DNA from: Desulfomonile tiedjei
GTDB taxonomy: Bacteria > Desulfobacterota > Desulfomonilia > Desulfomonilales > Desulfomonilaceae
Reading direction: 5' to 3'
DNA length: 64,000 bases
Assembly: GCA_016218715.1 (NCBI GenBank)
Contig: JACRDG010000040.1
Span: 1-64,000 of the forward strand
Below, in pieces: positions 3,001-64,000 of the stretch; position 1 is the stretch's first letter; each line of letters begins with the position of its first letter. The notes under the pieces were generated by a model, which was not told the origin of the DNA, ran no database searches, and worked only from the letters and a program-made list of their open reading frames with translations. The position numbers and the translations under genes were made by a program.

Positions 3001-6000
3001 CAACGCCACGACCGGCCAGGAGCTCTACAAGGTCGATCCTACGAACGGGGTAACGCTGGTCCAAGACATTTACACCGGGGCAACGGGTAGCAATCCCTCC
3101 GGCTTCACGCTTCTCGACGGGATCACCTATTTCAAGGCAACAGACGCGACGAGCGGTACGGAGCTGTGGCAGTACAACGGGACGAGCGCCGGGCTGGTTC
3201 AAGACCTCTATCAGGGGCCTTATGCCCACGGCAATCCAACCTACCTGACGGCCGGTAACAACGCGGTGTTCTTCAGAGCAGCAGCCGTCGGCGGGGGCAG
3301 CATCTACGGGGACCAAATATGGAAAGTTGACGGCGCCGGCACCAACGATCTTCCGACCGCCACGAACCTGAGCCAGGCTGTGACAATGGAGGAAGATTCC
3401 GGATCCGTTGGCCTGACGCCCATAGTGGTTGGCGATGCAGACGGTGACACGATCACGGCCACTCTGTCGCTCGGCACTCCTTCCTCTGGTGCTCTCTCTG
3501 TCAGCGGTGGAGCGACCTACAATCCGATTACAGGCTTCTGGAGCATCACTGGTGATGCGACGACAGTGAGCACTGCACTGGCGGCTGTGACGTTCACCCC
3601 GGTTGCAGACTGGAACGGAACGGTCAACATCATCACCCACGTGCAGGATGCCAAGGGTACCAGTCCCATGAATGGACTCGCCACGATCACGGTGACGCCC
3701 GTGAACGATGCAGCCTCAGCCAACGCGGCGTCGGTCGCCCTGAACGAGGACCCGGGGGCTCCTGTTGCGGTGGTATTGAGCGGCAACCCCGGTCCTGCCA
3801 ACGAGCAGGGTCAGATCCTGAGCTATACGCTCGATCTGACCGGCATGAGCGGGAAGCTGTTCAGCGATGCCGGCGGTCTCAACCAGTTGGCACAAGGGGC
3901 CACGGTGACTGCCGGTGCGCAGGGCCAGACTCCGGTGACGGTCTATTACCTCCCTGATGCGGACTACGCGGGTCCGACGAGCTTCTCGTACACCGCCAGC
4001 GACGACGGCGGCACGCCGGTTCAGGGGACGAGCACTCCTGCTGCGGTGACGGTCGGCGTGGCCGCGGTGAACGATGCGCCCGCGCATGTCAACATCCCGG
4101 CAGGGGTGCTGACGACCACCGAGGATGCGGCAGTGGTCTTCTCCACCGCCACCGGGAATGCGATCTCCATTTCCGACGTGGACCTGACCTACGGCACTGC
4201 ATCACAGCCGTATACGGTAACCTTCACCACCGCGAAGACAGGGGTCGGTGACATTAGCTCGGTGCCGTTGTACCTCGGCCAGATCGCGAACACGGGCAAC
4301 GTGTACGTGGCGCCGACGGCAGGGGTGACCATCACGGGGAACAACAGTGCGACGGTAACCCTGAGCGGCACCCTTGCCGACATTAACACAGCCCTGAGCA
4401 CTGGCCTCGAGTTCCGGCCGTACGCGGAAGGGTACGCGTACTCGGGTGCGTCCAACGCCCTCTTGACCATGGTAACGAGCGATAACGGCAACATCTTCGA
4501 CCCGCCCAACGCCGCGACACCGCTGACCGCGACCAGTGCGATCAACGTCACGGTCACCCCGGTCGCGGATGCGCCGGTGAACACTCTCGGCACGTTCAGC
4601 GTCCCCGCGGGGACGACACAGTTGACCTTGTCGCCGAACGGCATCAGTGTGCACGACGGCGACGTGAATGACACCCTGTTCGTGGAAGTCGAGGCTGGGA
4701 CGGGGGTTGCAGGTATCGGTTGGGGTGCGAGAGCGAAGTTTTCGCCCGCCTATGTGTACGTAGGGACGGAGTCGATGCTCAACTCGTTGCTGAACGGGAT
4801 CACGGCGAGCTTCCAGCCCGGTTTCTTCGGCCAGGCGACCGTCCTGGTGACGACTACTGATATCAGCGGTGCTACTACCACCGGCACGGTGACGATCGAC
4901 GTGGCCCCGGGCCAACTGCCGCCGCAGGTCACCACGGGAGCGACCGGATACCAGATCTGGGAGGATGACGCACCTCCGTTGAACCTCGGGAACTGCGTGA
5001 CCGTATCCGATCCGAATGGTGACCCGCTGATCGTCGATCTCGTGGCCCCGGTCGGTTCGGGGTGGAGTTCCTTAAACGCCACGGGTTCGGGCGCCGCGGT
5101 GGTAACAGGCGGTGGGACGACCTCGCTCCACATTACCGGCACCATGGTGGACGTGCAGAACACACTGCTCTCACTTAGTGGAACCTTGAGCCCCAATTTC
5201 AACGGAACCTCGGCCATCAACGTCACCGCGACTGACGGACACAGTCCTGTGGTGAATGCGGTAGTGAATCTTCCCGTCCAACTGGTGAATGATGCGCCGG
5301 TGGCGAATGCGGGGATCGTGGCCACAGGGAACGAGGATGCGGCAATCGCGGTGACCCTGAGCATGACCGACCCGCAGGATGCTGCGTTCGCCGGAGGCCC
5401 GAACTCCCTGCTCTCTGCGAACATCGTGACGGGTCCTGCTCACGGGACCCTGACCCAGGTAGGCCCCAACCCGGGCGACTGGTCGTACACCCCGAACGCA
5501 GACTGGTACGGCACCGACTCTTTCACCTATACGGTGACGGATAACGGCGGCACCGTCTGGGGCGGGCAGAACACCAGCGCAGTGGCGGAGACCGTGACCA
5601 TCAACGTGAACTCTGTGAACGATGCGCCTGCGCCTGTTGCCGGGAGCACCTCAGTTACCCTGGGTGCTTCAGTTCCGGTCACCCTGGCGCTGACCGACCT
5701 AAACGATGCGGCCGGTCCGGGCGGGGCGAACGCCCTCTTGGGTGCGACCATTGTGACGGCTCCTGCCCACGGGACCTTGAGCTTTGTCGGCCCCAACCCG
5801 GGCGACTGGGTGTACACCTCGGACGGGATCTTTACCGGAGTTGACACCTTCACGTACAACGTGCAGGACAACGGAGGCGTCACGAACGGAGGCGTAAACA
5901 CGAGCGTAACGCCTGCAACCTTCAGCATCAACGTGACTGCGGCCCCGAACGTCGCGCCGACTGCGACGAATATGACGCAGCCGCATACGATCCTGGAGGA

Positions 6001-8062
6001 CTCGGGTGCGCTCAACCTCACCGACATCGTGGTGACCGATCCGGATGTCGGTGACACCATCACGGCGACCTTGACCCTCAATCAGCCGGCGGCAGGCTCG
6101 CTTTCCGCCAATAACGGAGCGACGTACAACCCGGTGACGGGGGTGTGGAGCATCAACGGTACCGCGAGCGCAGTGAATCTCGCGCTGGCCAACGCGACCT
6201 TCAGCCCCACGGCCAACTGGAACGGGACCGCTACCATCGCCACCCATGTGGCGGATGCGGCCCTGAGCGGCCCGGCTGACGGTCTGATCACGGTGAACGT
6301 AACGGCGGTCAATGATGCTCCGGTGGCGAACGCAGGCATCGTGGCTGCGGGGAATGAGGACGCCGCCATCGGCGTCACGCTGGGAATGACCGACCCGACC
6401 GATGCAGCCGGTGCGAGCGGGCCGAACAGCCTGTCCGGGGTCACCATCGTGACGGGCCCGGCTCACGGGATCCTGACCCAGGTGGGCCCCGGTCCGGGTG
6501 ACTTCTCGTACACGCCGAACGCGAACTGGTACGGGACCGACAGCTTCACCTACACGGTGACGGATAACGGTGGCGTACTCAACGGCGGCGTGGACACGAG
6601 CTCTCCGGCGACGCTGGTCACCATCGATGTGGCCTCGGTGAACGATGCGCCCGCGGCTCTGCCGGGTAGTACCAGCGTCACTGTGGGTGGTTCGGTTCCC
6701 GTCACCCTGGCGCTGACCGACACGAACGATGCTGCAGGTCCGCCCCCGGGAGGGAATAGCCTGTTGGCCGCCACCATCGTGACCGGTCCGGCCCACGGGA
6801 CCGTGACCTATGTCGGCCCCAACCCGGGCGACTGGGTGTACACCTCGGACGGGATCTTTACCGGCATTGACAGCTTCACGTACAACGTGCAGGACAACGG
6901 AGGCGTACTGAACGGCGGGGCGGACACGAGTGTAGCTCCGGCGACCTTCACCATTAACGTGAACCCTCCGGGGAACACGGTTCCGATCGCGACAAATATG
7001 ACCCAGAATCACACGATCCTGGAAGACTCGGGTCAGCTCAACCTGACGGACATTGTGGTGACCGATCCGGACGCCGGTGACACCGTCACGGCGACCTTAA
7101 CCCTCAATCAGCCGGCGGCAGGCTCGCTCTCCGCCAATAACGGAGCGACGTACAACCCGGTGACGGGGGTGTGGAGCATCAATGGTACGGTGAGCGCGGT
7201 GAATCTTGCTCTGGCCAACGCGACCTTTACCCCCGCGGCCAATTGGAACGGGACTGCCACCGTCACCACCCATGTGGTGGATGCGGCCCTGAGCGGTCCG
7301 GCCGATGGTCTGATCACGGTAGGGGTAACTACGGTGAATGATGCGCCGGTGGCCAACGCGGGGATCGTGGTTTCGGGGAATGAGAATACAGCAATCCCCG
7401 TTACCCTCGGGATGACCGACCCGACCGATGCAGCCGGTCCCAGCGGACCGAACAGCTTGTTGCAGGCCAACATTGTGACCGGTCCGGCACACGGCACGGT
7501 GACCCAGGTGGGCCCGGGTCCGGGCGACTGGTCGTACACCCCCGACCTGAACTGGGCCGGGACCGATACGTTCACCTACACGGTGACGGATAACGGAGGC
7601 ACAACCAACGGCGGCGTGGCCACCAGCGCTCCGCCGACGCTCGTCACGATAAATGTGGCCGCGGGGAATGACGCGCCGGTGAACACCGTGCCGCTCACGG
7701 TTCAGGACGTCAGCCAAGGCCAGTCGTTGATCTTTACCGGCAGCAATGCGATTTCCGTGACTGATGCTGATGCGGGGACAGCAGCAATCCAGATGGATCT
7801 GACCGCGACGCATGGCACCATGACTCTTGGAGGACGGCCTCCCGCCAGCCTGACGATAACCGGAAATGGGACGGCCTCGATCCGGTTGGTAGGATCCCAG
7901 GCTGATATCAACACGGCCCTCAACGGGATGACGTTCTTCGCGGATGGATGGTACTTCGGTCCCGCGACCATCACGGTGGCTACCAATGACCTGGGCCATA
8001 CTCCTCCGCCGGCTACTACCGACACCGATGTGGTCAACATCAACGTGATTCGGTTGAGGTAG
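2..8062 (+). CDS. Giant repetitive surface/secreted protein, 5' end outside window (DUF4347, ELK repeats, cadherin-like repeats)
   Basis: The reading frame is open from base 2, so the gene starts upstream of the window. A TTG at 95 is only the first possible start inside it and lies within the conserved domain. Counting from that TTG, residues ~1-165 match the DUF4347 domain found near the N-terminus of very large bacterial adhesins (motifs VGHGSAG and FYGCSLA). Residues ~185-1085 are repeats with the pattern NVNGTLFF..GTELFK, three of them near-identical in DNA. Residues ~1090-2655 are cadherin-like/tandem-95 domains (NEDxA, FTYTVTDNGG, VNDAP) arranged as a ~341-residue super-repeat. The protein ends abruptly without RTX repeats. 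Such proteins are normally exported by type I secretion and act in adhesion or biofilm formation; no transporter is in view. The next gene lies on the other strand. Confidence 0.88.
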   Translation, partial: QITGAPGHAQATGAAAAPSVPTSYDHVFNEDLNVVLISNQLADVQTISDAAAANAKVIVYDAQHDNLSTISAQLQDLVNSTGHKIDNLAIVGHGSAGVLSLGTDQIMYSSLTQFEGTFQALSASLSEDAQIQFYGCSLAADASGKALVDSIATFSSADVFASTDTTGGNAHDWTLEYASNSTVAMHTLLNADALAADNTPLAGASVLKYLSTDSTSSPTNYVTIGTKVYFAADDQAHGKEIWVYDTVARTTSLLYDLNATNYSSINATSIQSNPLYLTVVTNPGDGHQVLFFSATDTGIVAQAGQHGQELWMYDPASGQPPQLVEDIYSATPSSSSSPASLVDVNGALYFTANDGTGVALWKSTDGTAANTVKETNTLGLTAPANLTNVNGTLFFTGTTTATGTELFKVNAGGSIELVKNFNGTATASSPASLTNVNGTLYLTANDGTGVALWMSTDGTPANTTKVTNTLGLTAPANLTNVNGTLMFTGTTTATGTELFKVNAGGSIELAKDFNGTATASSPASLTNVNGTLYLTANDGTGIALWKSTDGTPANTTKVANTAGVTAFASLANINGTLFFAGTSAATGSELYKVDATNGVTLVQDIYSGTSASGPSALTDIGGGKLVFTANGWSGAFDAGATGNEPWVYDPAGGATLLKDIMISHQGLNGGDPAAPVNVNGTIYWIQTIDSVHGAKLMRYDGTTTSVVPGVTPDSGRPLTNVNGTLFFNGNDGVHGSGLMIIDANGNPQFVAAGNSVKLATAAENILYYTTWSDSLLHQSNGTAAGTITVSGPAGFSIGGMTPQMTNVNGTMYFNAYTSTSGWELFQTNGNGTATMVADINPGLGAGSNILNMTNVNGTLFFSALTSANGQELYKFDPTTDTAPVLIDISTGTGSSSPSNFINVNNTLYFTATDGTSGIELYTTDGLTATRVADINPGAGNSNPTQLTNVNGTTYFVATDATGSGLWQTDGTTTTKVTNTPALTGFSTLFNANGTLLFMGYNATTGQELYKVDPTNGVTLVQDIYTGATGSNPSGFTLLDGITYFKATDATSGTELWQYNGTSAGLVQDLYQGPYAHGNPTYLTAGNNAVFFRAAAVGGGSIYGDQIWKVDGAGTNDLPTATNLSQAVTMEEDSGSVGLTPIVVGDADGDTITATLSLGTPSSGALSVSGGATYNPITGFWSITGDATTVSTALAAVTFTPVADWNGTVNIITHVQDAKGTSPMNGLATITVTPVNDAASANAASVALNEDPGAPVAVVLSGNPGPANEQGQILSYTLDLTGMSGKLFSDAGGLNQLAQGATVTAGAQGQTPVTVYYLPDADYAGPTSFSYTASDDGGTPVQGTSTPAAVTVGVAAVNDAPAHVNIPAGVLTTTEDAAVVFSTATGNAISISDVDLTYGTASQPYTVTFTTAKTGVGDISSVPLYLGQIANTGNVYVAPTAGVTITGNNSATVTLSGTLADINTALSTGLEFRPYAEGYAYSGASNALLTMVTSDNGNIFDPPNAATPLTATSAINVTVTPVADAPVNTLGTFSVPAGTTQLTLSPNGISVHDGDVNDTLFVEVEAGTGVAGIGWGARAKFSPAYVYVGTESMLNSLLNGITASFQPGFFGQATVLVTTTDISGATTTGTVTIDVAPGQLPPQVTTGATGYQIWEDDAPPLNLGNCVTVSDPNGDPLIVDLVAPVGSGWSSLNATGSGAAVVTGGGTTSLHITGTMVDVQNTLLSLSGTLSPNFNGTSAINVTATDGHSPVVNAVVNLPVQLVNDAPVANAGIVATGNEDAAIAVTLSMTDPQDAAFAGGPNSLLSANIVTGPAHGTLTQVGPNPGDWSYTPNADWYGTDSFTYTVTDNGGTVWGGQNTSAVAETVTINVNSVNDAPAPVAGSTSVTLGASVPVTLALTDLNDAAGPGGANALLGATIVTAPAHGTLSFVGPNPGDWVYTSDGIFTGVDTFTYNVQDNGGVTNGGVNTSVTPATFSINVTAAPNVAPTATNMTQPHTILEDSGALNLTDIVVTDPDVGDTITATLTLNQPAAGSLSANNGATYNPVTGVWSINGTASAVNLALANATFSPTANWNGTATIATHVADAALSGPADGLITVNVTAVNDAPVANAGIVAAGNEDAAIGVTLGMTDPTDAAGASGPNSLSGVTIVTGPAHGILTQVGPGPGDFSYTPNANWYGTDSFTYTVTDNGGVLNGGVDTSSPATLVTIDVASVNDAPAALPGSTSVTVGGSVPVTLALTDTNDAAGPPPGGNSLLAATIVTGPAHGTVTYVGPNPGDWVYTSDGIFTGIDSFTYNVQDNGGVLNGGADTSVAPATFTINVNPPGNTVPIATNMTQNHTILEDSGQLNLTDIVVTDPDAGDTVTATLTLNQPAAGSLSANNGATYNPVTGVWSINGTVSAVNLALANATFTPAANWNGTATVTTHVVDAALSGPADGLITVGVTTVNDAPVANAGIVVSGNENTAIPVTLGMTDPTDAAGPSGPNSLLQANIVTGPAHGTVTQVGPGPGDWSYTPDLNWAGTDTFTYTVTDNGGTTNGGVATSAPPTLVTINVAAGNDAPVNTVPLTVQDVSQGQSLIFTGSNAISVTDADAGTAAIQMDLTATHGTMTLGGRPPASLTITGNGTASIRLVGSQADINTALNGMTFFADGWYFGPATITVATNDLGHTPPPATTDTDVVNINVIRLR
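1011..1725 (+). repeat. Intragenic tandem repeat, 276-bp period
   Basis: The string GTCCCGCTTC recurs at 1011, 1287 and 1563, exactly 276 bp (92 codons) apart, and the flanking DNA is nearly identical between the second and third copies. This indicates recent duplication or gene conversion of the ELK-type repeat inside the giant protein gene. Confidence 0.85.
5297..8000 (+). repeat. Intragenic super-repeat, ~1023-bp period
   Basis: The block beginning CCGGTGGCGAA or close variants starts at 5297, 6320 and 7346. Each ~341-residue unit contains three cadherin-like domains in the same order. Copies are highly similar at the protein level but show scattered silent changes, so they are older than the 276-bp array. 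The third copy is incomplete. Confidence 0.8.
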
Positions 8063-8115
8063 ACCGACGGACCGGTACTGCTTCGCCCAGTTCGGAGACT
8101 TCAGCGCTCCGGCAA

Positions 8116-8146
8116 TTGGGAAGGGGAAACCATGTCCCCTTCCCAA
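8116..8146 (+). terminator. Rho-independent terminator of the giant protein gene
   Basis: A perfect 12-bp stem (TTGGGAAGGGGA with TCCCCTTCCCAA) encloses a 7-nt loop and is followed by ACTCTTTT. It lies 54 bp after the stop codon. Confidence 0.88.
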
Positions 8147-8155
8147 ACTCTTTTC

Positions 8156-8201
8156 ATTATGATTCCGGGAGATGGCGCTTGTCCCGGTGCACGGTTACCC
8201 C
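8156..8201 (-). repeat. ~45-nt dispersed intergenic repeat, copy A
   Basis: Read on the minus strand, it runs from GGGGTAACCGTGCACCGG to CGGAATCATAAT. The same ends occur in copies at 13159-13205 (minus), 46543-46586 (plus) and 62145-62188 (plus). The ends are conserved and the centre is variable. Confidence 0.6.
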
Positions 8202-8567
8202 AGGAGCCAGAACGGAATAATCGGCCCATTCCTCTCCTTTCCCTTCCCTATCCTCATCCTCGAGACATTTTGATCTTTTCGCTATCGATCGGGGCTGGTT
8301 TTGCAGGTGACCAATCTACCGTGATCTTGAAAGCTGCTGAAACAGGCTACCTGGAACAGATCTAGAAATGACTGGCTGCATAGGCCTATGTGAACGCCGT
8401 TGGTAATCATACACATGCTGCAGGCTGTTGCCTGTAATTTATCGACAACCGAGACTCCTTTTCCACCAATTCATAGCCGAGGTTGATGCGTCTCCCGAAC
8501 ACAGGAATCGGACAAGAATTCCGGCAACGGCCGCGTGACCTGTGTGGTGCTTCCGTGTCGGCATGCG
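8202..8567. other. Intergenic region, no gene seen
   Basis: Convergent intergenic space between the giant protein gene and the marR-type gene. I find no convincing start site, promoter or RNA structure here. Short open frames in it lack ribosome binding sites. Confidence 0.6.
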
Positions 8568-9038
8568 TCACATATGCGGCTGTTTGTGCCTCGTTTGCTT
8601 CAGGATTTCTCGCAATGTCTCCAGGAGCGCGGACTTTTCTTCATCGGAATATTTCATCAGGTATCTTTTCACATTTCGCTCTTTGAGGTCGGAGATGGCC
8701 TTGAGCACCTGCACTCCTGCAGGAGTGATCCGCAACCTTTTCAAACGGTCATCGTCTGGATGGTTTGTTCGAACAATAAAGCCGTTCCTTTCCAATCTCT
8801 TGGCAATGCCTGTCATGTTGGCGCTTGAAACCAGCATGATTCTGTTCACGTTCTTCATGGTGTTTTGGCCGTCTTGCGAGGCATCCAAGACTCTGAGCAG
8901 GTTGTATTGCGAGAAGGTCAGACCCCATTTGCTGACGAGGGCTGAGGAGTTCTTTTTGAATCCCTCCGCGACCCGTACGATTGCCATCATAACCTTCTCG
9001 TCAATGCTCATATCGCTCTTGTAGACACTATCAGACAC
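8568..9038 (-). CDS. MarR-family transcriptional regulator
   Basis: A winged-helix regulator of 156 residues, typical for MarR proteins. The recognition helix region is around SSANMTGIAKRLERNG, followed by the wing signature HPDDDRLKRLRITPAG. I chose the GTG at 9038 because AAGG sits 9 nt upstream; a longer frame from 9122 would run back through the promoter at 9076-9104. MarR proteins usually repress nearby catabolic or efflux genes and are relieved by aromatic or CoA-type ligands. This one is the distal gene of the co-directional catabolic block, so it is the natural candidate regulator of that block. It has its own promoter and may be transcribed alone. The ligand is unknown. Confidence 0.88.
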   Translation of the reverse strand: MSDSVYKSDMSIDEKVMMAIVRVAEGFKKNSSALVSKWGLTFSQYNLLRVLDASQDGQNTMKNVNRIMLVSSANMTGIAKRLERNGFIVRTNHPDDDRLKRLRITPAGVQVLKAISDLKERNVKRYLMKYSDEEKSALLETLREILKQTRHKQPHM

Positions 9039-53075: not shown

Positions 53076-54512
53076 ATGGGAAGAGGAGTTTTTAGCATTA
53101 GGCACAAAGTCGTCATCGCGGTGGTGGCAGTCTATCTCTGTATGGCCGCCACCATCATGGGTAGTTACTATTTCATGCAGCGGCTGGAAGGGAAGATAGC
53201 GTTTCTTGAGGACGCGGGCAAACTGGAAGAGGATGTCCTCGAGATTCGCCGATTCGAGAAGAATTTTTTTCTGTACGGCGACCCCGAGTCGTTGAAAACC
53301 GCCCTCTATCACCTGGTAAGAGCCCGGAGCCTCCTGGACAGGAACGAGGACACTCTCGTGACGCTCTATTCAGGGGAAAAGACCGCCCAGTTCAAGCAAG
53401 ATCTTGTCGCGTACGGGAGGATGCTCTCCGACTGTTCCTCGCTCACGGCTCAGGGGACGTTGGCCACCGATCCGGAATGCAAGGCCGACTATGAGGCCCG
53501 GATACGGAAAGTCGGCACATCCATCGCGGACTTTGCCACCAACGCGGCTCAGCGGAAGCGTGAGTCCATCAAGAAGCTCATGGCAACCACTGTCGAGCTT
53601 CAGGTGGCCGGCCTCATAGTGGTAGGAATCGGTCTGGTCGCGATCGGCGGTTTTCTCGTCGTCAAGGTGACCAGGCCACTGAAGCTTCTGGAACAGAGCA
53701 CCACCAAAATCGCCAAGGGGGAATTTGAGCCCATCGAAGCACTGCCGCAAGAAAAAGAGGTCCGGGAGATCTTCGATTCATTCAACAAAATGGCACGCCA
53801 ACTGAAACAGCGAGAGGAACAGTTGGTGGAATCCAAAAAGCTTGCATCCCTCGGGACCATGTTGGCCGGGGTGGCCCACGAAGTGAACAACCCTCTCTCC
53901 AACATCTCGTCATCGTGCGAAATCCTACTCGAGGAGGTGGACGATGGTGACAAGGAGTTTCAGAAGAAAGTTCTGAGAAAGGTCCTGGAACAGGTCGATA
54001 AGGCGCGGATTATCGTCCTGAATCTGCTCGAGTTCTCTCGGCACAAAGAGTTCTGCCCCGAATCTCTGGACCTCAAGGAGATGATCGAAAAGACCTTGAG
54101 CCTGATTCGCGGTCAAAAACCGCCCGGGGTCAGAATCGTCACGCACATAGACGAAGGCTTGCGGATACGCGCGGACAGACAGCGCATCGAGCAGGCCTTC
54201 ATGAATCTGATTTCTAATGCGTTTCAGGCCATTGAAGGCGATGGTGAAGTGATCATCCGCGCTATCTCGTCGGATGAGGGGTTCGTCAAGGTTAGAATAC
54301 AAGACACAGGAAAAGGTATCCCCACGGAGGTGCTCCCGCGCATCTTCGATCCGTTCTTCACCACCAAAGATGTCGGCCAGGGGACCGGCTTGGGACTCTT
54401 TATCACCCATGACATCATCGTCAGGCACCGCGGGAACATACGCGTCGAAAGCGCCCCCGGCCACGGGACCGTGTTTTGCGTCAGCATTCCTGCGGAGGAG
54501 CAATCCAAATGA
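53076..54512 (+). CDS. Membrane sensor histidine kinase
   Basis: 478 residues. Transmembrane helices at ~10-33 and ~177-196 bracket a ~140-residue helical periplasmic domain ([10 protein letters not shown] resembles four-helix sensor domains). It is followed by HAMP (~197-250), HisKA with H268 in [13 protein letters not shown], and an HATPase domain ([25 protein letters not shown]). It belongs to the NtrB/AtoS-like group that partners NtrC-type regulators, and overlaps the regulator gene by 4 bp (ATGA). GAGGGA lies 7 nt before the ATG. The signal is unknown. Confidence 0.92.
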
Positions 54513-55870
54513 ACAACCCGCCGAAACTGCTCATCATCGATGACGAAGAAATGGCACTGATGAACCTCGAGCACATTCTCATGAAGAACGGCTATGACAT
54601 CGAGACGGCCGATACGGGACCCCGAGGGCTCAGCCTCCTCAAGAGCAACCACTTTGACGTGATTCTCACTGACTTGCGCATGGAAAAGATTGACGGCATG
54701 CGCATCCTCGAGGAGTGCCGGCGCCACCATCCGCGGAGCGAAGTCATCATGATCACCGGCTATGCGACCGTGGACTCGGCCATTGAAGCCATGAAGCAAG
54801 GGGCGTACCACTACATCGCCAAGCCGTACCGGATCGAAGCGGTTCGCAAGGTGGTGGCCGAAGCACTGGAAAAGATCCGATTGCGTGACGAGAATCTCCA
54901 ACTCAAACACGATCTGGAAGTGCTGCGGGAAGCGGGCCAGGTGAAGATTATCACTAAAGATCCTACCATGGTGCGGATCCTCGAAACGGCACGCCAGATA
55001 GCCGCGACCGACTGCAACGTGCTGATCACCGGCGAGTCAGGCACGGGCAAAGAACTGCTGGCCAGGTTCCTGCACGAGCACAGCAAGCGAAGCCAGGGCC
55101 CTCTCCTGGCGGTAAACTGCGGTGTGTTCAACGAAGAATTGCTCACCAACGAACTGTTCGGCCATGAAAAGGGCGCCTACACAGGGGCGGACACCGGAAA
55201 GCCCGGAATCATGGAACTGGCCAAGGGAGGAACGCTCTTCCTGGATGAGATCACCGAAATGTCCACCAACATGCAGGCGAAGCTCCTCAGGGTGATCCAG
55301 GAGCGGCAGCTCATGCGAGTGGGCGGGACTGCGACGATCAAGGTGGACTTGCGGTTGATTGCCGCGACCAACCGGAACGTCCAGGAAGCGGTTCAGGCGA
55401 ACCACTTCCGCAAAGATCTCTACTACAGGTTAAACGTGGTCTCTTTTGAGCTGCCGCCGCTGGCCGCGCGCAAGGGGGACATCCCGTTGCTCGCTCAATT
55501 CTTTCTCGAGAAGCACGCGAAACTGATGGCAAAGGAGATGCCGTCACTTTCTCGCGAGGTGATAGACATTCTCAAAGACTACGATTATCCCGGCAACGTC
55601 AGGGAACTGGAGAACATCATTGAGCGGGGGGTGGCTCTCACGACGGAGAATGTCATCGAGCCTCAACACCTACCCGATGACATCAGGGATCTGAAGATCC
55701 TTACGTTTCGCCGGAAAGATGGGGCCATGCCTACGCTGGAGGAGCAGGAAATCCTCTACATCAAACAGGTCCTGGCGGAAACGGCGGGGAACAAGACAGC
55801 CGCGTCCGAAATCCTCGGCATAGATCGCGTATCGCTGTGGCGAAAGATCAAGCGGTACGGACTGGAATAG
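54509..55870 (+). CDS. NtrC-family sigma-54 response regulator
   Basis: 453 residues. Receiver domain with D11/D12, phosphoacceptor D55 (LTDLRM) and K105; AAA+ domain with GESGTGKE (175-182) and GAYTGA (222-227, the F-to-Y variant of the sigma-54 loop); C-terminal Fis-type helix-turn-helix (NKTAASEILGIDRVSLWRKIK). It is phosphorylated by the overlapping upstream kinase and should activate -24/-12 promoters, candidates for which occur at 19798, 32180, 35832, 44103 and 52698. The start is set by the ATGA overlap. Confidence 0.93.
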   Translation: MNNPPKLLIIDDEEMALMNLEHILMKNGYDIETADTGPRGLSLLKSNHFDVILTDLRMEKIDGMRILEECRRHHPRSEVIMITGYATVDSAIEAMKQGAYHYIAKPYRIEAVRKVVAEALEKIRLRDENLQLKHDLEVLREAGQVKIITKDPTMVRILETARQIAATDCNVLITGESGTGKELLARFLHEHSKRSQGPLLAVNCGVFNEELLTNELFGHEKGAYTGADTGKPGIMELAKGGTLFLDEITEMSTNMQAKLLRVIQERQLMRVGGTATIKVDLRLIAATNRNVQEAVQANHFRKDLYYRLNVVSFELPPLAARKGDIPLLAQFFLEKHAKLMAKEMPSLSREVIDILKDYDYPGNVRELENIIERGVALTTENVIEPQHLPDDIRDLKILTFRRKDGAMPTLEEQEILYIKQVLAETAGNKTAASEILGIDRVSLWRKIKRYGLE

Positions 55871-56261: not shown

Positions 56262-57410
56262 ATGAAATTTACCAAAGCTGGAATCATTGGTGCGATTGTC
56301 CTTATCGGACTTCTGCTTCTGGCCACCGTGGTGAGTCTCCTGAAATCGGACACGAACCATCGCCTCGCTTCGGCCACTGTGGACCTCAGTCGGCACCTGG
56401 TTTACGCCTCGTACCACTTCGAGAAGGACGACAAGATCATTCATATAGGGGTTCAGCCGCTCTGGATCTTTGAGGGCAATGTTGCCGAAATCATGAAGCG
56501 TGACAATCTACTCCAGGAGAGGCTCGCGCGACTGGGGCTAGAAATTCGGCTCCATTCCTTCCTCAAAGGTGATGATATCAACTTCTTCATCCGGAGGGGC
56601 GATCTCCACGGAGGCATGTTGGGAGACATGCCGACGCTCACCCTCGCGGCTGAGGCAGACGTGGTCATTCCTGCCCTGGTCGATCGGGGATTCAATTCGA
56701 TCGTAGCCGCTGGTTTCGTCTTGGTGAGAGACCTGAAAGGACTGCGCATCGGCTATCCGTTCGGATCGTTTTCACACCACGCGTTGTTGGAGGCCTTGTC
56801 AGCCGACGGTCTGACCGAGCGACATGTCGATCTACGGCCGATGGATGTCACGGAGATTCCTGAAGCCTTTCGCAAGGGAGAAATCCAGGTTTTTGCGGCC
56901 TGGGAGCCTGCTGTTTCTATCGCCCGGAAAAAGAACCCGAAAGGAGTCGTCATCCATCGGAGCCGTTACCTGGGGTTTATGGTATTCCGCAAAAACCTGC
57001 TGGACAATCATCCTGACGCGGTGCGAGAGATTCTGGCTTCAGAGATTCGTGCTCTCCGATGGATTCAGCACGATGGGCACAACCTTAACCAGTCCAGCGA
57101 ATGGGCTCTGGAAGCCGGCAAGGTCCTCACTGGGGGTGGTATGGAGATCTCTGCCGAACAATCTGACCAGATTATTGCCCAGGGAAATGACATGAACCTG
57201 GTCCCCCTGATTCCCGCAGGAGCCCTTCAGGACAACGGGCACTTGCATCGGGAGTTCACGTTTCTCAAGAACTTGGGCCGTATTGCCAAAACCAGTGCAT
57301 GGGACGTGGTGGTACGGAAGTTTGATCGCGACCTCACCGCAGAGGTCCTTGCACAGCCGGGCAAATACCGCCTCGACGAGTTCGATTATGACACCGGGAG
57401 ACGGAGATGA
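56262..57410 (+). CDS. Membrane-anchored periplasmic binding protein (NMT1/TauA-like), probable sensory partner
   Basis: 382 residues. One N-terminal hydrophobic helix (~6-28) without an evident cleavage site suggests a membrane-anchored periplasmic protein. The body resembles ABC-type substrate-binding proteins of the nitrate/sulfonate/thiamine-precursor class: IHIGVQPLWIFEG, then FFIRRGDLHGGMLGDMPT, LRIGYPFGSFSHHALLEAL and GEIQVFAAWEP. No ABC permease or ATPase is nearby. The gene overlaps the hybrid kinase start by 4 bp (ATGA), so a role in presenting ligand to that kinase is likely. The ligand is unknown. Confidence 0.82.
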   Translation: MKFTKAGIIGAIVLIGLLLLATVVSLLKSDTNHRLASATVDLSRHLVYASYHFEKDDKIIHIGVQPLWIFEGNVAEIMKRDNLLQERLARLGLEIRLHSFLKGDDINFFIRRGDLHGGMLGDMPTLTLAAEADVVIPALVDRGFNSIVAAGFVLVRDLKGLRIGYPFGSFSHHALLEALSADGLTERHVDLRPMDVTEIPEAFRKGEIQVFAAWEPAVSIARKKNPKGVVIHRSRYLGFMVFRKNLLDNHPDAVREILASEIRALRWIQHDGHNLNQSSEWALEAGKVLTGGGMEISAEQSDQIIAQGNDMNLVPLIPAGALQDNGHLHREFTFLKNLGRIAKTSAWDVVVRKFDRDLTAEVLAQPGKYRLDEFDYDTGRRR

Positions 57411-60400
57411 GCGACGATCCTGCTGTGAATTCCAGACCGGCCGACGCAAAAAGGTTCTTCGGCCTGCGGTCACAGATGCTACTCGGATTCTGCCTACCGC
57501 TCGCCGCGACCGTGGTATTGATGGGTCTCGTCGTCACCTTCGGCATACCATTCACCAGCTATGAAGGGACCTACGATCGGCAGCGAGGCCGAGTGTTGGG
57601 AGACATGAGCCTGATCGCCGACTTGAAGAAAGATCGGTTCGAGCTGTGGTTGGGCGAGCGCAAAGACGATGTCAGGACGCTCTGTGAGGAGGCTTCGCTG
57701 CTGACGGCTGTTGGTAAACTCCGCGATAGTATTGCTCGGAACGCGACAGCCGCGGAAACGAGCATCGCTCCCGACGACCACATCCGGAAAGGACCAGATT
57801 ATCAGGCGCTCCTTCAGAAGCTCACAGCAGTTACGACCGCGCACAGGGCGCTTCAGAAGATAGAGGTGGCGGATGCTGTGACGGGCGTGATTTTGGTTTC
57901 TACCGATAGAGGGGAAGCGGGCCTCAGGGTCTCCGACAGGAAATTCTTTCGCTCAGCACTCGATAATGGCTATGACGAATCCGTTGAGGTCGAAAAAGAC
58001 CCGACGACCGGCAAAATCTATCTCATCGTTTCGCGGATCGCGAGAGGTCTGGTCCTGGATAGGGACGGCACGCGCCCTGCGCTCGCGGTGGTCTCCGTGT
58101 ACACGGATACGGAAGAGTTCCTCAAGCCGATGCTGTACGCGGGGAGCACCTTGGGAGAAAAAGGGGAAATTGTCCTGGTCGATCACCACGGCACGATTCT
58201 GATGTCCCTGAAACATCTCCTCCCGGACGGGAGTAAGGCCAAGGTGTTGGAGTATCAGTTGAAAGCCAAGCCTGCCATGCTGGCTATCCGAGGCAAAGAA
58301 GGGCTCGCTGCCACGGAGGACTATCGGGGCGTTCCGATTCTTGCTGCCTATCGTTACCTCAGGGTGTCCCCCGATACAGGGTGGGGGATGGTGGTGAAAC
58401 GTGACCAGGCTGAGGTCTTCGCCCCTCTTTGGCGGCAAGTGCTCTATATCTGCCTCGTGAGTCTGTTCGGCCTATTAGCCGCTATGGGGCTGAGCGTCTT
58501 CCTGGCGAACCGCATCTCGCGACCGATCAGGAACTTGTGCGCGACCGCACTGGAAGTGAAAGCCGGTAACCTCGACGCGCGAGCGCCCGCAGGGGGTTCA
58601 GATGAAGTCGGCATTTTGGCTGCAACGCTAAACTCCATGATCGATCGCGTTCAGCATTGGCATCGGGATCTCGAGGAACAGGTCAGGGCAAGAACGGCAC
58701 AACTGAACCGAGCGAACGAAGAACTCACCGCCGAGGTTGTACAACGGACGCGTGCAGAAAAGTCGCTCATCAAGGCAAACCGCGCCTTGAAGACCCTGAG
58801 CCATTCCAATCAGGCTGCCATAAGAGCTGAGAGTGAATCCGCGCTCATGACGGAAATGTGCCGAGGGATCGTCGAGATCGGGGGATACTCACTCGCCTGG
58901 GTCGGATTCGCCGAGCAGGATGCCGCAAAGACCGTGCGGCCTGTAACGAAATACGGGACGGACAGCGGTTCCCTGGACAAGATGAAATTTTCGTGGGCCG
59001 ACGACGATTCCGGCCGCGGGCCCACGGGGACGTGCATCAGAACCCAGGCTCCTTGTGTGATCCACGATGTCGCGAACGATTCCAACGACATTTCCTGGCG
59101 GCAGGAAGCGGGCAAACTCGGCTATAGAGCAGCCCTGGCACTACCACTGATGGAAAATGGTACGTGCTTCGGTGCGCTCAACATTTATGCAGCTCAGGCG
59201 GACGCCTTTGACGACGAAGAGGTCGAACTGCTCCAGGAATTGGCTGCGGATCTGTCGTTTGGGCTCACCGCGATCAGGACCAAACAGCAGGTCCTGGAAC
59301 TGAAAGAGTTCTATGAAACGATTCTGGAAAACATCAATGACGGGATCTGGGTCAGCGATGAAAAGGATGTCATATTCTATGTCAATTCCGCCATGGCTAA
59401 AATCGCGGGCGCAGGAAAGAATCGGATTGTGGGACCGCTAGGGGATTTTCCCGAAAGTACGCCCGCACAATTGCATGGCTCCTATTTGCGTGCGAAAGAA
59501 TCGCTCATACCCGTCTATTATGATTCCCTTCGCTTCGTTACCCCTCTCGGCCGCGAGTCTTTCCAGTCAGGCTGGCTGATACCTGTGGTCAGACAGGGCC
59601 GCTTCGCGGGAATGATTTGTACCGCGCAAGACATTACCGGCCATAAGCGCTCGGAAGAGGCCCAGAAGCGGCTGGCTACGGCGGTGGAACAGGCTGCCGA
59701 AACCATCGTGATCACCGACACCGAGGGGACGATCCTCTACGTCAACCCCGCATCGGAACGGTCGAGCGGCTACGCGCGAGAGGAAATCATCGGCACCCGA
59801 ACGAAAGATTTCATGAGCAGTGAACAGGTAGGCGACTTTGGTGCAGACATGTGGGACACGCTTGCCGGTGGCAAGGTGTGGTCCGGTCGATTCGTCAGCA
59901 AGAAGAAGGACGGGAGCCTCTTCCACGAAGAAGCGACCATTTCTCCTGTGCGGGATTCCAGTGATAACACTATCAATTTTGTGGCTGTGAAACGAGACAT
60001 AACAGAACATCTCAAGCTCGCCGCGCAACTTCAGCAGGCACAAAAGATGGAGGCAATCGGCACCCTTGCGGGAGGAATTGCCCACGATTTCAACAACCTG
60101 TTGACCATCATACTGGGGTTCTCAGAAGTGCTTCTCGCTGAGAGACAAGGGAACGAGCCTGACTACGACGATCTCAAGAAGATACTCCATGCCGGTAAGA
60201 ACGGAGCAGAACTCGTGCAGCGATTGCTCACGTTCAGCCGAAAGGTGGAGCCCAAGCTTGTTCCCCTCGACCTCAACCGGCAGATCAGGCAGGTCGAGAG
60301 ACTTCTGAGGCGCACGATTTCCAAGATGATCGAGATTCGACTCGATCTGGCCGACGACCTGGAAGAAATCAATGCCGATCCTTCTCAAATGGAACAGATC

Positions 60401-61183
60401 CTGATGAATCTTGCGGTCAACGCCCGGGATGCCATGCTTGAAGCGGGCACGCTTACTCTCCGGACAGAAAACGTCGTGCTGGATGAGGAGTACTGCAAAT
60501 ACCATCATGGAACCAGGCCAGGACAATACGTTTTGCTCACCGTGTCCGATACCGGGCATGGCATGGACGGGGAAACGGTCGAGCACATATTTGAACCGTT
60601 CTATACCACCAAGGAGCTGGGTCGTGGCACAGGGTTGGGGCTTGCCATGGTGTACGGGATCGTGAACCAACATCACGGTTACGTCACGTGCTACAGTGAA
60701 GTCGGTCGCGGTACCGCGTTCCGGATCTACCTGCCTGCTGTGGAGCGCCGAGGGGAAGACAAACCGGAGAAGACGGAAATGGCACCCGCATTCGGAACAG
60801 AGACGATCCTGTTGGTTGACGATGAAGAATCCATCAGAGAACTAGGAGTGCGAATTCTCGGGAAAGCCGGTTATACCGTGCTCACCGCGAGGAACGGCAA
60901 CGAAGCCCTGGATATGTTTCAACGAGAGCGACAGAGCATTTCGCTCGTCATTATGGACTTAATGATGCCTGGGATGGGAGGCAAGGAGTGTCTAAAGAAC
61001 CTTCTCCAGATAGACCCCAGGGCTAGAATCCTTGTCGCCAGCGGCTATTCCGGTGATGCCTCCACGCGGGAAATGGTCGAGTTGGGTGCGTGCGGTTTTG
61101 TCGGAAAGCCCTTCAGGATGAACGATCTGCTCCAACAAGTGCGCCAGGCCCTGGACAATCCCGCGTCGCATTCCAAAGAGTAA
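57407..61183 (+). CDS. Hybrid sensor histidine kinase (Cache-HAMP-GAF-PAS-PAS-HisKA-HATPase-REC)
   Basis: 1258 residues. Transmembrane helices ~25-48 and ~345-367 flank a large periplasmic double-Cache-type domain. HAMP (~368-420) is followed by a coiled coil, a GAF domain (~470-625), two PAS domains (~632-760 and ~765-885), HisKA with H893 (GGIAHDFNNLL), an HATPase domain (NLAVNARDAM, DTGHGMD, GRGTGLGL) and a C-terminal receiver with D1184 (VIMDLMMPG). No output domain is present, so phosphate should pass to a separate phosphotransfer protein or regulator. Its start overlaps the binding-protein gene. A GGGGGAAC-type hairpin begins at the stop codon. Confidence 0.93.
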   Translation: MSDDPAVNSRPADAKRFFGLRSQMLLGFCLPLAATVVLMGLVVTFGIPFTSYEGTYDRQRGRVLGDMSLIADLKKDRFELWLGERKDDVRTLCEEASLLTAVGKLRDSIARNATAAETSIAPDDHIRKGPDYQALLQKLTAVTTAHRALQKIEVADAVTGVILVSTDRGEAGLRVSDRKFFRSALDNGYDESVEVEKDPTTGKIYLIVSRIARGLVLDRDGTRPALAVVSVYTDTEEFLKPMLYAGSTLGEKGEIVLVDHHGTILMSLKHLLPDGSKAKVLEYQLKAKPAMLAIRGKEGLAATEDYRGVPILAAYRYLRVSPDTGWGMVVKRDQAEVFAPLWRQVLYICLVSLFGLLAAMGLSVFLANRISRPIRNLCATALEVKAGNLDARAPAGGSDEVGILAATLNSMIDRVQHWHRDLEEQVRARTAQLNRANEELTAEVVQRTRAEKSLIKANRALKTLSHSNQAAIRAESESALMTEMCRGIVEIGGYSLAWVGFAEQDAAKTVRPVTKYGTDSGSLDKMKFSWADDDSGRGPTGTCIRTQAPCVIHDVANDSNDISWRQEAGKLGYRAALALPLMENGTCFGALNIYAAQADAFDDEEVELLQELAADLSFGLTAIRTKQQVLELKEFYETILENINDGIWVSDEKDVIFYVNSAMAKIAGAGKNRIVGPLGDFPESTPAQLHGSYLRAKESLIPVYYDSLRFVTPLGRESFQSGWLIPVVRQGRFAGMICTAQDITGHKRSEEAQKRLATAVEQAAETIVITDTEGTILYVNPASERSSGYAREEIIGTRTKDFMSSEQVGDFGADMWDTLAGGKVWSGRFVSKKKDGSLFHEEATISPVRDSSDNTINFVAVKRDITEHLKLAAQLQQAQKMEAIGTLAGGIAHDFNNLLTIILGFSEVLLAERQGNEPDYDDLKKILHAGKNGAELVQRLLTFSRKVEPKLVPLDLNRQIRQVERLLRRTISKMIEIRLDLADDLEEINADPSQMEQILMNLAVNARDAMLEAGTLTLRTENVVLDEEYCKYHHGTRPGQYVLLTVSDTGHGMDGETVEHIFEPFYTTKELGRGTGLGLAMVYGIVNQHHGYVTCYSEVGRGTAFRIYLPAVERRGEDKPEKTEMAPAFGTETILLVDDEESIRELGVRILGKAGYTVLTARNGNEALDMFQRERQSISLVIMDLMMPGMGGKECLKNLLQIDPRARILVASGYSGDASTREMVELGACGFVGKPFRMNDLLQQVRQALDNPASHSKE

Positions 61184-61250: not shown

Positions 61251-62108
61251 TCAATCGCCATGCTCTCGGCTCTTGTCCCTGAACACAAGCACGGGGCGGG
61301 TCGTGGATCGCACGAGATTCAGCGCCTCATCGCTTATCAGTTGTCGGAGCTTCGACCGCTGATGTCCGTACGCGCCCAAGACGACCAGGTCACAGCGTGA
61401 ACCGATCACCTCCTTGACCACTTCGTCCACGAAACTCCCCTTGCGCGTCACGGTCAGCGGCGCGTGGCCGAGCTGTTTCAGCGTTTCATCGCCTTCCAGC
61501 AGGCAGGCCTTGCCGAATTCCTCCGCGTCCGGACGGTCGCTCTCTTCCACGTGAAGAACTGTTATCTCCGGCTTCTTCCGTGCAAGCAGCGGAGCGATAA
61601 ACTCGAGAGCTTTCTGGTCGCAGGCTGAACCGCGGTATGCGACGAGAACGCGGTGGATCTCGCGAAAATCCCGCACGATCAGGACCGACTGGGTCGCGTG
61701 ATGGAGGATCTTCGCGTGAACCGCGCCGAGCAGAAAACCCTTGAGCGCCGAGTAACCGTGCGATCCGAGCACTATCAGGTCGTAATCGCCGTCCGATGCG
61801 GCGTCCAATATGCCTTCCGCGGGATCGCCCAGCGAAACTTCAGGCTCACACGGCACCTTGCCCGCCAGGCAGTAAGAACACTCCTTGACCACGTCTTCCC
61901 GGATCTGGAGTTTTTGCTTGTCTATCCACTTGTCGAGCCCTTCCTGCCCGACAAACGGCGCGTAAAAGACCTCGGGAGCGATCGCGATGCCATCGGGCTG
62001 CACGTACAAGGCATGCACTTCCGCGTCAAAATGTTCCAGGAGGTGGCATACATAGGCGAGAGCGAGGTGAGATTCCTGGCTGTTATCCACGCCAACAAGT
62101 ACTTTCAT
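61251..62108 (-). CDS. Tandem UspA-domain protein
   Basis: 285 residues made of two universal stress domains (~1-140 and ~148-285). The first ends with GSHGYSALKGFLLGA, a near-intact ATP motif with GA in place of GS. The second (GAYGHQRSKLRQLIS) has lost the final Gly. An unusual CSYC pair sits in an insert of the first domain. The start is the ATG at 62108 with GGGGG 7 nt upstream. It is downstream of the other tandem-Usp gene on the same strand. Confidence 0.9.
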   Translation of the reverse strand: MKVLVGVDNSQESHLALAYVCHLLEHFDAEVHALYVQPDGIAIAPEVFYAPFVGQEGLDKWIDKQKLQIREDVVKECSYCLAGKVPCEPEVSLGDPAEGILDAASDGDYDLIVLGSHGYSALKGFLLGAVHAKILHHATQSVLIVRDFREIHRVLVAYRGSACDQKALEFIAPLLARKKPEITVLHVEESDRPDAEEFGKACLLEGDETLKQLGHAPLTVTRKGSFVDEVVKEVIGSRCDLVVLGAYGHQRSKLRQLISDEALNLVRSTTRPVLVFRDKSREHGD

Positions 62109-62144
62109 GGTGTATCCCCCTTGAAGATCGCTACCGACCATTAA

Positions 62145-62188
62145 GGCAACCGTTCACCGGAATAGGCCCAACCGTCTGGAATCACGAT
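62145..62188 (+). repeat. ~45-nt dispersed intergenic repeat, copy C
   Basis: GGCAACCGTTCACCGGAATAG...CTGGAATCACGAT, the best-preserved end sequences of the four copies. It lies between the two tandem-Usp genes. Confidence 0.65.
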
Positions 62189-62204
62189 GAGGAACAATTA
62201 TTCG

Positions 62205-63056
62205 TCACGATCGGGTCACCAGGACCGGGCACCTCGCGTGACCGACGACACGTTCCGTCACGCTCCCCATCAACAGCCTACCCAATCCCGATCGGCCATG
62301 CGAGCCGATAACGATCAGTTCGATGTGCTGTTTTTCAGCAATGTCGGTAATAAGTTGTGCCGGATCGCCTTCCCGCAGCAATGGCTCGATGAGCACCCCC
62401 GCAGCGTCAGCTTTTTGCTCCACTTGTACCAGATTCTCTCGTGCGTTGGCAATTATTCCCTCCGCTGCCGCTGGCGATACCCCGTAAAGGTGGGAAGGCA
62501 CATTTGCCACGGAAAGGGCGTAGAGTTTGCTGCCGTAGGTGCGGTGGAAATCGAACGCGCGTTGCATGGCTCCATCGCTGAACTTGGAGCAGTCGATCGC
62601 GAAAAGGATCGTGTCCAGCCCGAAGGTTCCGTTCAGGGGAACTACCAGGATGTCAGTGCGACTGTATCCTATGACCCGGGCGGTCAAGCTCCCCATGAGC
62701 AACTGGTCCGCGGGATTGCATCCCCTCACTCCGACGACGATCAGGTCACAATGCTCCGATTCTGCCAGTTCGACAATCGTCTCGTGTGGTTCCCCTTCTT
62801 CGCACGAGGCTTGTATACGAACACCATGAGCCTCGGCCGTCTTCGCGGCGTCGATGAGAGCCTTTTGGTAAGGCTGCCGCATCAGTTCAACTACATGCTG
62901 TTTCACTCCGACCAGGCTGAGTTCCCCCTCGTACGGGGGGACCACAGAGACGACTCTCACCGTACTCTTCTCGGCCCTGGCCAGTCGAAACGTTTCACGC
63001 AATGCGTGCAAACTCGATTCGGAACCGTCCAGGGCAACGAGAATTTTGTCATACAT
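62205..63056 (-). CDS. Tandem UspA-domain protein, coupled to a TauE-type permease
   Basis: 283 residues, two universal stress domains. Both ATP-binding motifs are intact: GVRGCNPADQLLMGS and GSHGRSGLGRLLMGS (G-2X-G-9X-GS), so both halves should bind ATP. The start codon overlaps the end of the TauE/SafE gene by 8 bp, which implies translational coupling. This suggests a soluble regulator of that permease or shared stress induction. Confidence 0.93.
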   Translation of the reverse strand: MYDKILVALDGSESSLHALRETFRLARAEKSTVRVVSVVPPYEGELSLVGVKQHVVELMRQPYQKALIDAAKTAEAHGVRIQASCEEGEPHETIVELAESEHCDLIVVGVRGCNPADQLLMGSLTARVIGYSRTDILVVPLNGTFGLDTILFAIDCSKFSDGAMQRAFDFHRTYGSKLYALSVANVPSHLYGVSPAAAEGIIANARENLVQVEQKADAAGVLIEPLLREGDPAQLITDIAEKQHIELIVIGSHGRSGLGRLLMGSVTERVVGHARCPVLVTRS

Positions 63057-64000
63057 GTTCGTAACTTTCCGAGGAAACCCGCGCCGGCGCGGTGCCGTAC
63101 GCAGCCTGCTCCGCTGCTCTCTTCCCTTTGATCATCGCACCGAGGATAATAACTGCGCCAACCCCGAGTGCAAAACACATGGTGAGAAAGCTGACGATGC
63201 TCAAGATCGAGAGCACCTGCGGGGTCACGGAGATGACCTTCAGTTGGACCAGGTACTCCGGGACAGCGAGGGCTCTGCTCACCGCGACGATCACCATGAT
63301 CGTGCCCATGACCACCTTGATCATGTGCTCCTTCACGTACGTGGTTCCGATCGCTCCCAACTGCACGCCCAGGAGCGATCCGGCAAGGATGATCAGGGTC
63401 AATCTAATGTCCACCATTCCGTGCATGGCCCACTTCACCGTGCCGCCCAAGCCCATGAGAAACGCGATAACCAGCTCCGTAGCCGAAGACATCAAGCCGC
63501 CGACCCCAACCACGTAGATCATGCCGGGCACGCCGATGAATCCGCCCACGGCTATGGTTGCGGCCAGCATTCCTGTGGCAAACCCCACGGGAATGGTAAA
63601 CCACAACGAGATACGCACATTCGCGGTCTTGAAGTGAATCATGGGGGGCAGGTTGATTCCCTGAAGCTTCTTGGCGAGGGCGCCAACCGGGTCCGCACTC
63701 CCGTCCCCTTTGGCGGTCCACGCGTCGTAAAACACGTATCCACCTACGATTAGCAATACTGCGACAAACGAGACACTTACGTACAGGTTCGATCCGGCTT
63801 CTCCCCAGCGCGTGAGGATCATCTCTTGGATTTTGATCCCGGCCTGGACCCCCACCGTCGCGGAGGCAGCCATCACAAGCCCGAGTTTTATGTCTACCTG
63901 ACCGTACTTATATCTCTTGTACGCACCGACCATGGCCTTGGGGAATTTGTGACACATGTTACTCGCGACCGCAACCGCTGCGGGAACCCCCAGGCTCATC
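63049..64000 (-). CDS. TauE/SafE-family anion permease, 5' end outside window
   Basis: 316 residues are visible with ~8 membrane helices. The frame is open at the right edge and the first visible residues (LGVPAAVAVASNM) are an internal motif of the family (normally preceded by a Gly-rich TP segment), so the N-terminus is missing. TauE/SafE proteins move sulfite, sulfonates, sulfoacetate or related organic anions. The second half repeats the motif (GGFIGVPGMIYVVGV...SSATELVIAF). A long cytoplasmic linker (AWTAKGDGSADPVGALAKK) separates the halves. The gene overlaps the downstream tandem-Usp gene. Confidence 0.88.
   Translation of the reverse strand, partial: MSLGVPAAVAVASNMCHKFPKAMVGAYKRYKYGQVDIKLGLVMAASATVGVQAGIKIQEMILTRWGEAGSNLYVSVSFVAVLLIVGGYVFYDAWTAKGDGSADPVGALAKKLQGINLPPMIHFKTANVRISLWFTIPVGFATGMLAATIAVGGFIGVPGMIYVVGVGGLMSSATELVIAFLMGLGGTVKWAMHGMVDIRLTLIILAGSLLGVQLGAIGTTYVKEHMIKVVMGTIMVIVAVSRALAVPEYLVQLKVISVTPQVLSILSIVSFLTMCFALGVGAVIILGAMIKGKRAAEQAAYGTAPARVSSESYEHV

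Follow-up and report, generated by a model that had tools for sequence, protein, structure and literature searches.

A solute-binding protein of the NMT1/SsuA type and a dCache hybrid histidine kinase as a probable two-part receptor in Desulfomonile tiedjei

The window, which is the whole stretch of 64,000 nucleotides from Desulfomonile tiedjei that was analysed, carries a gene for a solute-binding protein (SBP) followed by a gene for a hybrid sensor histidine kinase. Both open reading frames are real, and they share the ATGA at 57407-57410 that was pointed out in the sequence-only reading of this DNA. The features of the pair are as follows.

56262..57410, plus strand: gene for an NMT1/SsuA-TauA-type SBP of 382 aa (open reading frame, profile matches and full-length relatives)
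56283..56342, plus strand: hydrophobic helix at the SBP N-terminus, spanning roughly residues 8-27, a probable membrane anchor judged from hydropathy
56385..56420, plus strand: N-terminal motif LSxHxxYxxYxF of the SBP, residues 42-53, shared by all 14 closest members but by neither of the two nearest ABC-linked homologues
57407..57410, plus strand: ATGA in which the SBP stop codon and the kinase start codon overlap
57407..61183, plus strand: gene for a hybrid sensor histidine kinase of 1258 aa (open reading frame and domain matches)
57548..58426, plus strand: periplasmic dCache domain between two membrane helices, limits approximate (Pfam dCache_1 match under the cut-off; AlphaFold and Foldseek)
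58499..58654, plus strand: HAMP domain (profile match)
58829..59266, plus strand: GAF domain (profile match)
59306..59641, plus strand: first PAS domain, end approximate (profile match)
59669..60001, plus strand: second PAS domain (profile match)
60059..60739, plus strand: HisKA and HATPase_c transmitter (profile match)
60806..61141, plus strand: C-terminal receiver (REC) with no output domain (profile match)

The SBP passes the curated Pfam cut-offs for NMT1 (PF09084, 26.2 versus 20.5 bits) and OpuAC, in agreement with its initial description as a TauA/NMT1-like protein. The SsuA_fam profile matches it at 1e-20, which is under that model's own cut-off, and it also falls under the NCBIfam equivalog cut-offs for SsuA and TauA transport proteins (TIGR01728, 74.2 versus 163.5; TIGR01729, 46.1 versus 304). 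Among proteins of solved structure, it is closest to TauA, a nitrate transport protein and SsuA. An AlphaFold model of the SBP based on five sequences was poor (pLDDT 44) and was kept out of the fold search.

The kinase has two membrane helices around the dCache domain, followed in order by HAMP, GAF, PAS, PAS, HisKA, HATPase and a terminal REC. It had been read as a Cache-GAF-PAS-PAS hybrid kinase, and all of its domains score over their cut-offs save the Cache domain, which reaches 23.8 of the 45 bits required by Pfam. We assign it to dCache because Pfam dCache_1 is over its cut-off in the relatives at loci L035, L165, L166 and L167 and because the model of the domain (pLDDT 65) matches dCache sensors in Foldseek, namely the DctB, KinD and LuxQ sensor domains of the tandem-PAS (dCache) fold. 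The kinase does not reach the CckA cut-off (NF046020, 406.8 versus 1000 bits), and its likeness to CckA is confined to the catalytic part.

Several other genes were noted in the window. An AtoS/AtoC-like kinase and a sigma-54 activator, overlapping by 4 nt, occupy 53076-55870 and end about 390 bp before the SBP; these were left out of the system, as other pairs have no such fixed neighbour. No convincing site was detected ahead of the pair in scans for sigma-70 promoters and terminators or with a sigma-54 pattern. Just past the kinase, the opposite strand at 61251-63999 encodes, as judged by eye, two proteins of universal-stress type and a membrane protein with multiple spans that is similar to sulfite/sulfonate exporters. 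At the other end, a very long open frame of 2686 codons (2-8062) runs off the window start.

Relatives of the SBP were sought in two steps. The first collection scan gave four full-length relatives with 39-42% identity, hosted by Kuenenia, two other Planctomycetota and one 'Deltaproteobacteria' genome, and each of the four is immediately followed by a kinase that shares the dCache domain. The profile searches, which covered two phyla, found three members in 343 Planctomycetota genomes, eleven SBPs in nine of 62 genomes of the Kuenenia order, one member among the 42 genomes sampled from the window's class, and the family in 21 of 277 genomes of the class to which the L038 genome belongs. Membership is well separated, with E-values of at most 1e-58 for members and about 1e-27 for the next best matches in the phylum samples. 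Since phylum searches centred on the L038 genome and on the window gave the same genomes, the two appear to belong to one phylum, and the SBP family is thus known here from two phyla.

Altogether we read 35 loci in 31 genomes, of which one (L164) is cut by a contig end, leaving 34 readable loci, for some of which the flanking sequence read spans only about 1.5 kb. At each of the 34, a dCache kinase gene encoded on the same strand comes immediately after the SBP gene, and at 17 the two overlap by exactly 4 nt. The co-occurrence search for the two-gene pair, proposed in the sequence-only reading, thus shows a conserved pair, and the arrangement is not due to chance. As the pairing recurs in every readable relative and in two phyla, the pair is very probably a real two-part receptor.

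At three loci, two tandem SBPs precede a single dCache kinase (L201, 7444-9647; L202, 7747-9904; L203, 6774-8986). The tandem SBPs represent two old paralogous branches, and loci L204 and L205 retain one of the two. It is possible that the tandem loci encode dual-ligand receptors.

The mode of anchoring varies within the family. Residues 8-27 of the window SBP are strongly hydrophobic, with no obvious signal peptidase site near behind them by hydropathy. The uncleaved N-terminal helix proposed earlier is therefore likely for this protein, but anchoring is not fixed across the family, in which some members have a helix, others a lipobox and others a signal that is likely cleaved. For instance, most SBPs of one sub-branch carry a lipobox (LCAC, LCGC, LFGC or VAGC), while several SBPs of the Kuenenia order look cleavable by eye. 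The helix and the lipid anchor would thus have separate origins, a hint that membrane retention may be useful. At locus L094 (kinase 4186-7662, SBP 7698-8861), the kinase carries a pair of dCache domains that belong to another branch, and the first 28 residues of the SBP are clearly copied from a membrane-helix segment of its own kinase (z ~14, with 0 of 500 shuffles as good). A helix common to the SBP and its own kinase was found at L094 only and does not occur in the window pair.

The family was also compared with SBPs that serve transporters. With TauC/TauB-like permease and ATPase queries, no NMT1-type ABC permease or ATPase genes were found beside the family loci, the window pair included, as the sequence-only reading had stated for this pair. 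Among distant NMT1 homologues, a permease or an ATPase occurs within about 1.5 kb at 47 of 65 distinct loci. The query matches in the stretches examined were LivFG in the window, an OpuC-like operon at L167, an ABC-F-like ATPase at L206 and, at L200, an unrelated ATPase some 6 kb away from the SBP and kinase genes. Two of them were considered and rejected as transport partners: the LivFG-type ATPases, ~6 kb upstream in the window, belong to a self-contained branched-chain transporter run, and the OpuC-like operon, ~5.5 kb from the pair at L167, is likewise self-contained. A tree of 54 SBPs places the 30 kinase-linked proteins in one clade with 100/100 support, present in all bootstrap trees and apart from all 18 ABC-linked SBPs. 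Orthologous SBPs with ABC permease genes, which would have spoken against the initial proposal, do not occur in this clade. A single kinase-linked clade is the pattern expected from one change from transport to signalling.

It is quite unlikely, in our judgement, that the SBP serves both transport and signalling by feeding an ABC permease encoded elsewhere. The D. tiedjei genome does encode further SBPs of the NMT1 type, together with at least one ABC operon of this type (L002), and a precedent for such a dual role is provided by citrate-loaded BctC, which serves its transporter and the BctE kinase alike (PMC9602780). However, no clade member adjoins ABC genes, the clade is distinct from the ABC-linked SBPs, and the additional N-terminal motif of the 14 closest members is not found in the nearest ABC-linked relatives. 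The earlier suggestion that ligand capture is devoted to signalling is supported by the pairing at 34 of 34 loci and by the ABC-free clade, with contact and binding as its presumed steps.

The distances between pairs indicate which parts of the system evolve together. For ten pairs, pairwise SBP distances correlate with dCache distances at r = 0.93 and with transmitter distances at 0.64; the partial correlation equals 0.88 for SBP and dCache with the transmitter held constant, and 0.20 for SBP and transmitter with the dCache held constant. For 25 pairs, the SBP-dCache correlation is r = 0.855, a value reached in 0 of 5000 permutations. The cytoplasmic half of the kinase is swapped between loci and consists of HisKA-HATPase alone or includes one PAS or GAF-PAS-PAS, and receivers occur as a fused REC, as a set of four, or as the product of a small separate gene. 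The unit that evolves together is the SBP plus the dCache, with the cytoplasmic half exchanged.

Linked genes can co-evolve without touching, which counts against a reading based on direct contact. Of 11 kinases proven to be SBP-activated, 10 have adjacent SBP genes, while the Pseudomonas aeruginosa kinases AgtS and AruS have SBP genes near them and no interaction was found (PMC11113362). The latter cases indicate that SBP and kinase neighbours may be functionally unlinked, as would apply here if the two genes were merely co-transcribed with no direct interaction. We consider this very improbable for the present family, in which adjacency is kept at 34 of 34 loci in two phyla despite the exchange of the cytoplasmic half. 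Our preferred reading is that the two genes encode one receptor, in which the SBP probably acts as the dCache-docking co-receptor of the kinase through a predicted physical contact. With no more than modest confidence, we also lean towards a history in which the clade left ABC transport once to become obligate co-receptors of dCache kinases, with the SBP and dCache forming an interchangeable cassette and one sub-branch having two ancient SBPs per kinase. If this is true, a single receptor of the tandem-SBP sub-branch could respond to two ligands or to their ratio.

Five dCache kinases of the same clade have no SBP in the flank examined, although one of them (L096) is cut 5' by a contig end. 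They include a paralogue in the D. tiedjei genome itself (contig C41, locus L144) and two kinases in one genome of the same family. At L144 (5152-10013) the paralogous kinase is followed, as judged by eye, by a small receiver and a REC-PAS-sigma54 activator; in principle, this paralogue could share the window's SBP. The SBP-linked kinases do not form one clade in the dCache tree (p-AU 0.004). The simplest account of the SBP-less kinases is an old pairing from which the SBP was later lost in some paralogues. Two alignment columns separate SBP-linked from SBP-less dCache domains, a number (expected 0.28, shuffle maximum 3) that we do not count as evidence.

The existence of same-clade kinases without an SBP implies that this dCache type is able to work SBP-free, and the dCache may possibly also sense directly. 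The kinase would then be a two-signal coincidence sensor, with a ligand of its own for the dCache and the SBP as a second input or modulator; the cytoplasmic GAF and PAS domains are further possible inputs. On the other hand, the tracking of SBP and dCache distances over all pairs suggests that the SBP matters to the input, which is still compatible with a second ligand. We regard this two-signal arrangement as unlikely, and return to the reading of the SBP as a dedicated co-receptor.

Residues of the putative ligand pocket were compared with those of TauA, in which Gln30, Gly61 and Gly79 coordinate the sulfonate and Glu106 and Asp205 bind the taurine amine (PMC6906117). The three sulfonate-coordinating residues correspond to Q65, G103 and G121 of the SBP, all invariant in the 14 closest members. 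In place of Glu106 and Asp205 these members have S146 (14 of 14) and G238 (13 of 14), so the taurine-amine residues are not kept. Gln30 is equated with Q65 on the basis of a shared motif and of the TauA sequence. Further invariant residues are D105, D122, H172, W214 and E215. From these positions we infer a ligand with an oxyanion-like head group, other than taurine. The window SBP departs from its family at 170-171, with FS for NA, and its ligand may therefore differ from that of the family.

In the proposed mechanism, the SBP would capture a small, probably oxyanion-bearing molecule in the periplasm and dock on the kinase dCache as a dedicated co-receptor. Docking would alter autophosphorylation across the membrane via HAMP, GAF and PAS, and the fused receiver would take the phosphate from the HisKA histidine and hand it on, probably to an HPt protein or a response regulator whose gene lies elsewhere. 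Physical contact, the direction of the response, the ligand class and the relay partner are all predicted components of this scheme.

The receiver indeed has no output domain, as first described, but the relay partner then thought to be missing calls for no special explanation: the situation is ordinary, since several relatives use a stand-alone receiver in place of a fused one and HPt domains are found elsewhere in the genome. Seven HPt matches were obtained in the D. tiedjei genome, one of them in a 163-residue open reading frame on contig C81. The downstream parts of the kinase vary across loci, so an output-less receiver in the window fits the family. Neighbours at family loci include REC-PAS-GGDEF-EAL and REC-KaiB proteins, and no target genes conserved beside the pair were found at these loci, where the output partner is not fixed. 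At L037 (11213-11908), the kinase gene is followed by that of a response regulator in which a receiver is joined to a KaiB domain. At L198, L199 and L207, a gene resembling CheR-type methyltransferases (by eye) precedes the SBP, and a REC-HK protein follows the large kinase.

The family is large and well bounded, in the Kuenenia (anammox) order and other bacteria, and automatic annotation would probably call its SBPs orphan ABC transporter parts. Built-in controls are available, since some related SBPs still work with ABC transporters and some related kinases have no SBP. The conversion from transport to signalling, the dCache-contacting surface and the feeding of one kinase by two SBPs thereby become testable. 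A 2022 survey counted only about ten characterised SBP-activated kinases (PMC9602780). In the literature searched we found no published description of a pair of an NMT1/SsuA-type SBP and a dCache kinase, and we do not claim the first NMT1-type case.

Known systems share different aspects of the pair. Association of the SBP gene with a kinase gene, which is the criterion for SBP-activated kinases, is seen at all 34 readable loci and also for BctC/BctE and other such kinases (PMC9602780, PMC11113362); in contrast to the window clade, which has no adjoining transporter genes, BctC remains a transporter part. TauA and SsuA belong to the same SBP superfamily, and the sulfonate-coordinating positions of TauA are kept in the window SBP, whereas the latter is kinase-linked and has neither the taurine-amine residues nor ABC partner genes. 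In the arsenite-sensing AioX/AioS/AioR system, an SBP of an ABC-type family has been diverted to signalling and adjoins a kinase gene (PMC5908839). The window SBP likewise comes from an ABC-serving family and lies beside a kinase gene; however, it is of the NMT1/SsuA type, while AioX is PhnD-related and tied to arsenic enzyme genes and a defined response regulator.

By analogy, the pair would most likely work like LuxP/LuxQ, built on an NMT1/SsuA-type SBP. LuxP belongs to another SBP family, and the window SBP gave no LuxP-family Pfam match. Contact and ligand are proven for LuxP/LuxQ, whereas both are predicted for the window pair. The likeness lies in the architecture: the Vibrio AI-2 receptor consists of a separate periplasmic SBP and a hybrid kinase with a tandem-PAS/dCache periplasmic part (PMC8534201), the window pair likewise combines a separate SBP with a hybrid dCache kinase, and LuxQ is among the fold matches of the window dCache.
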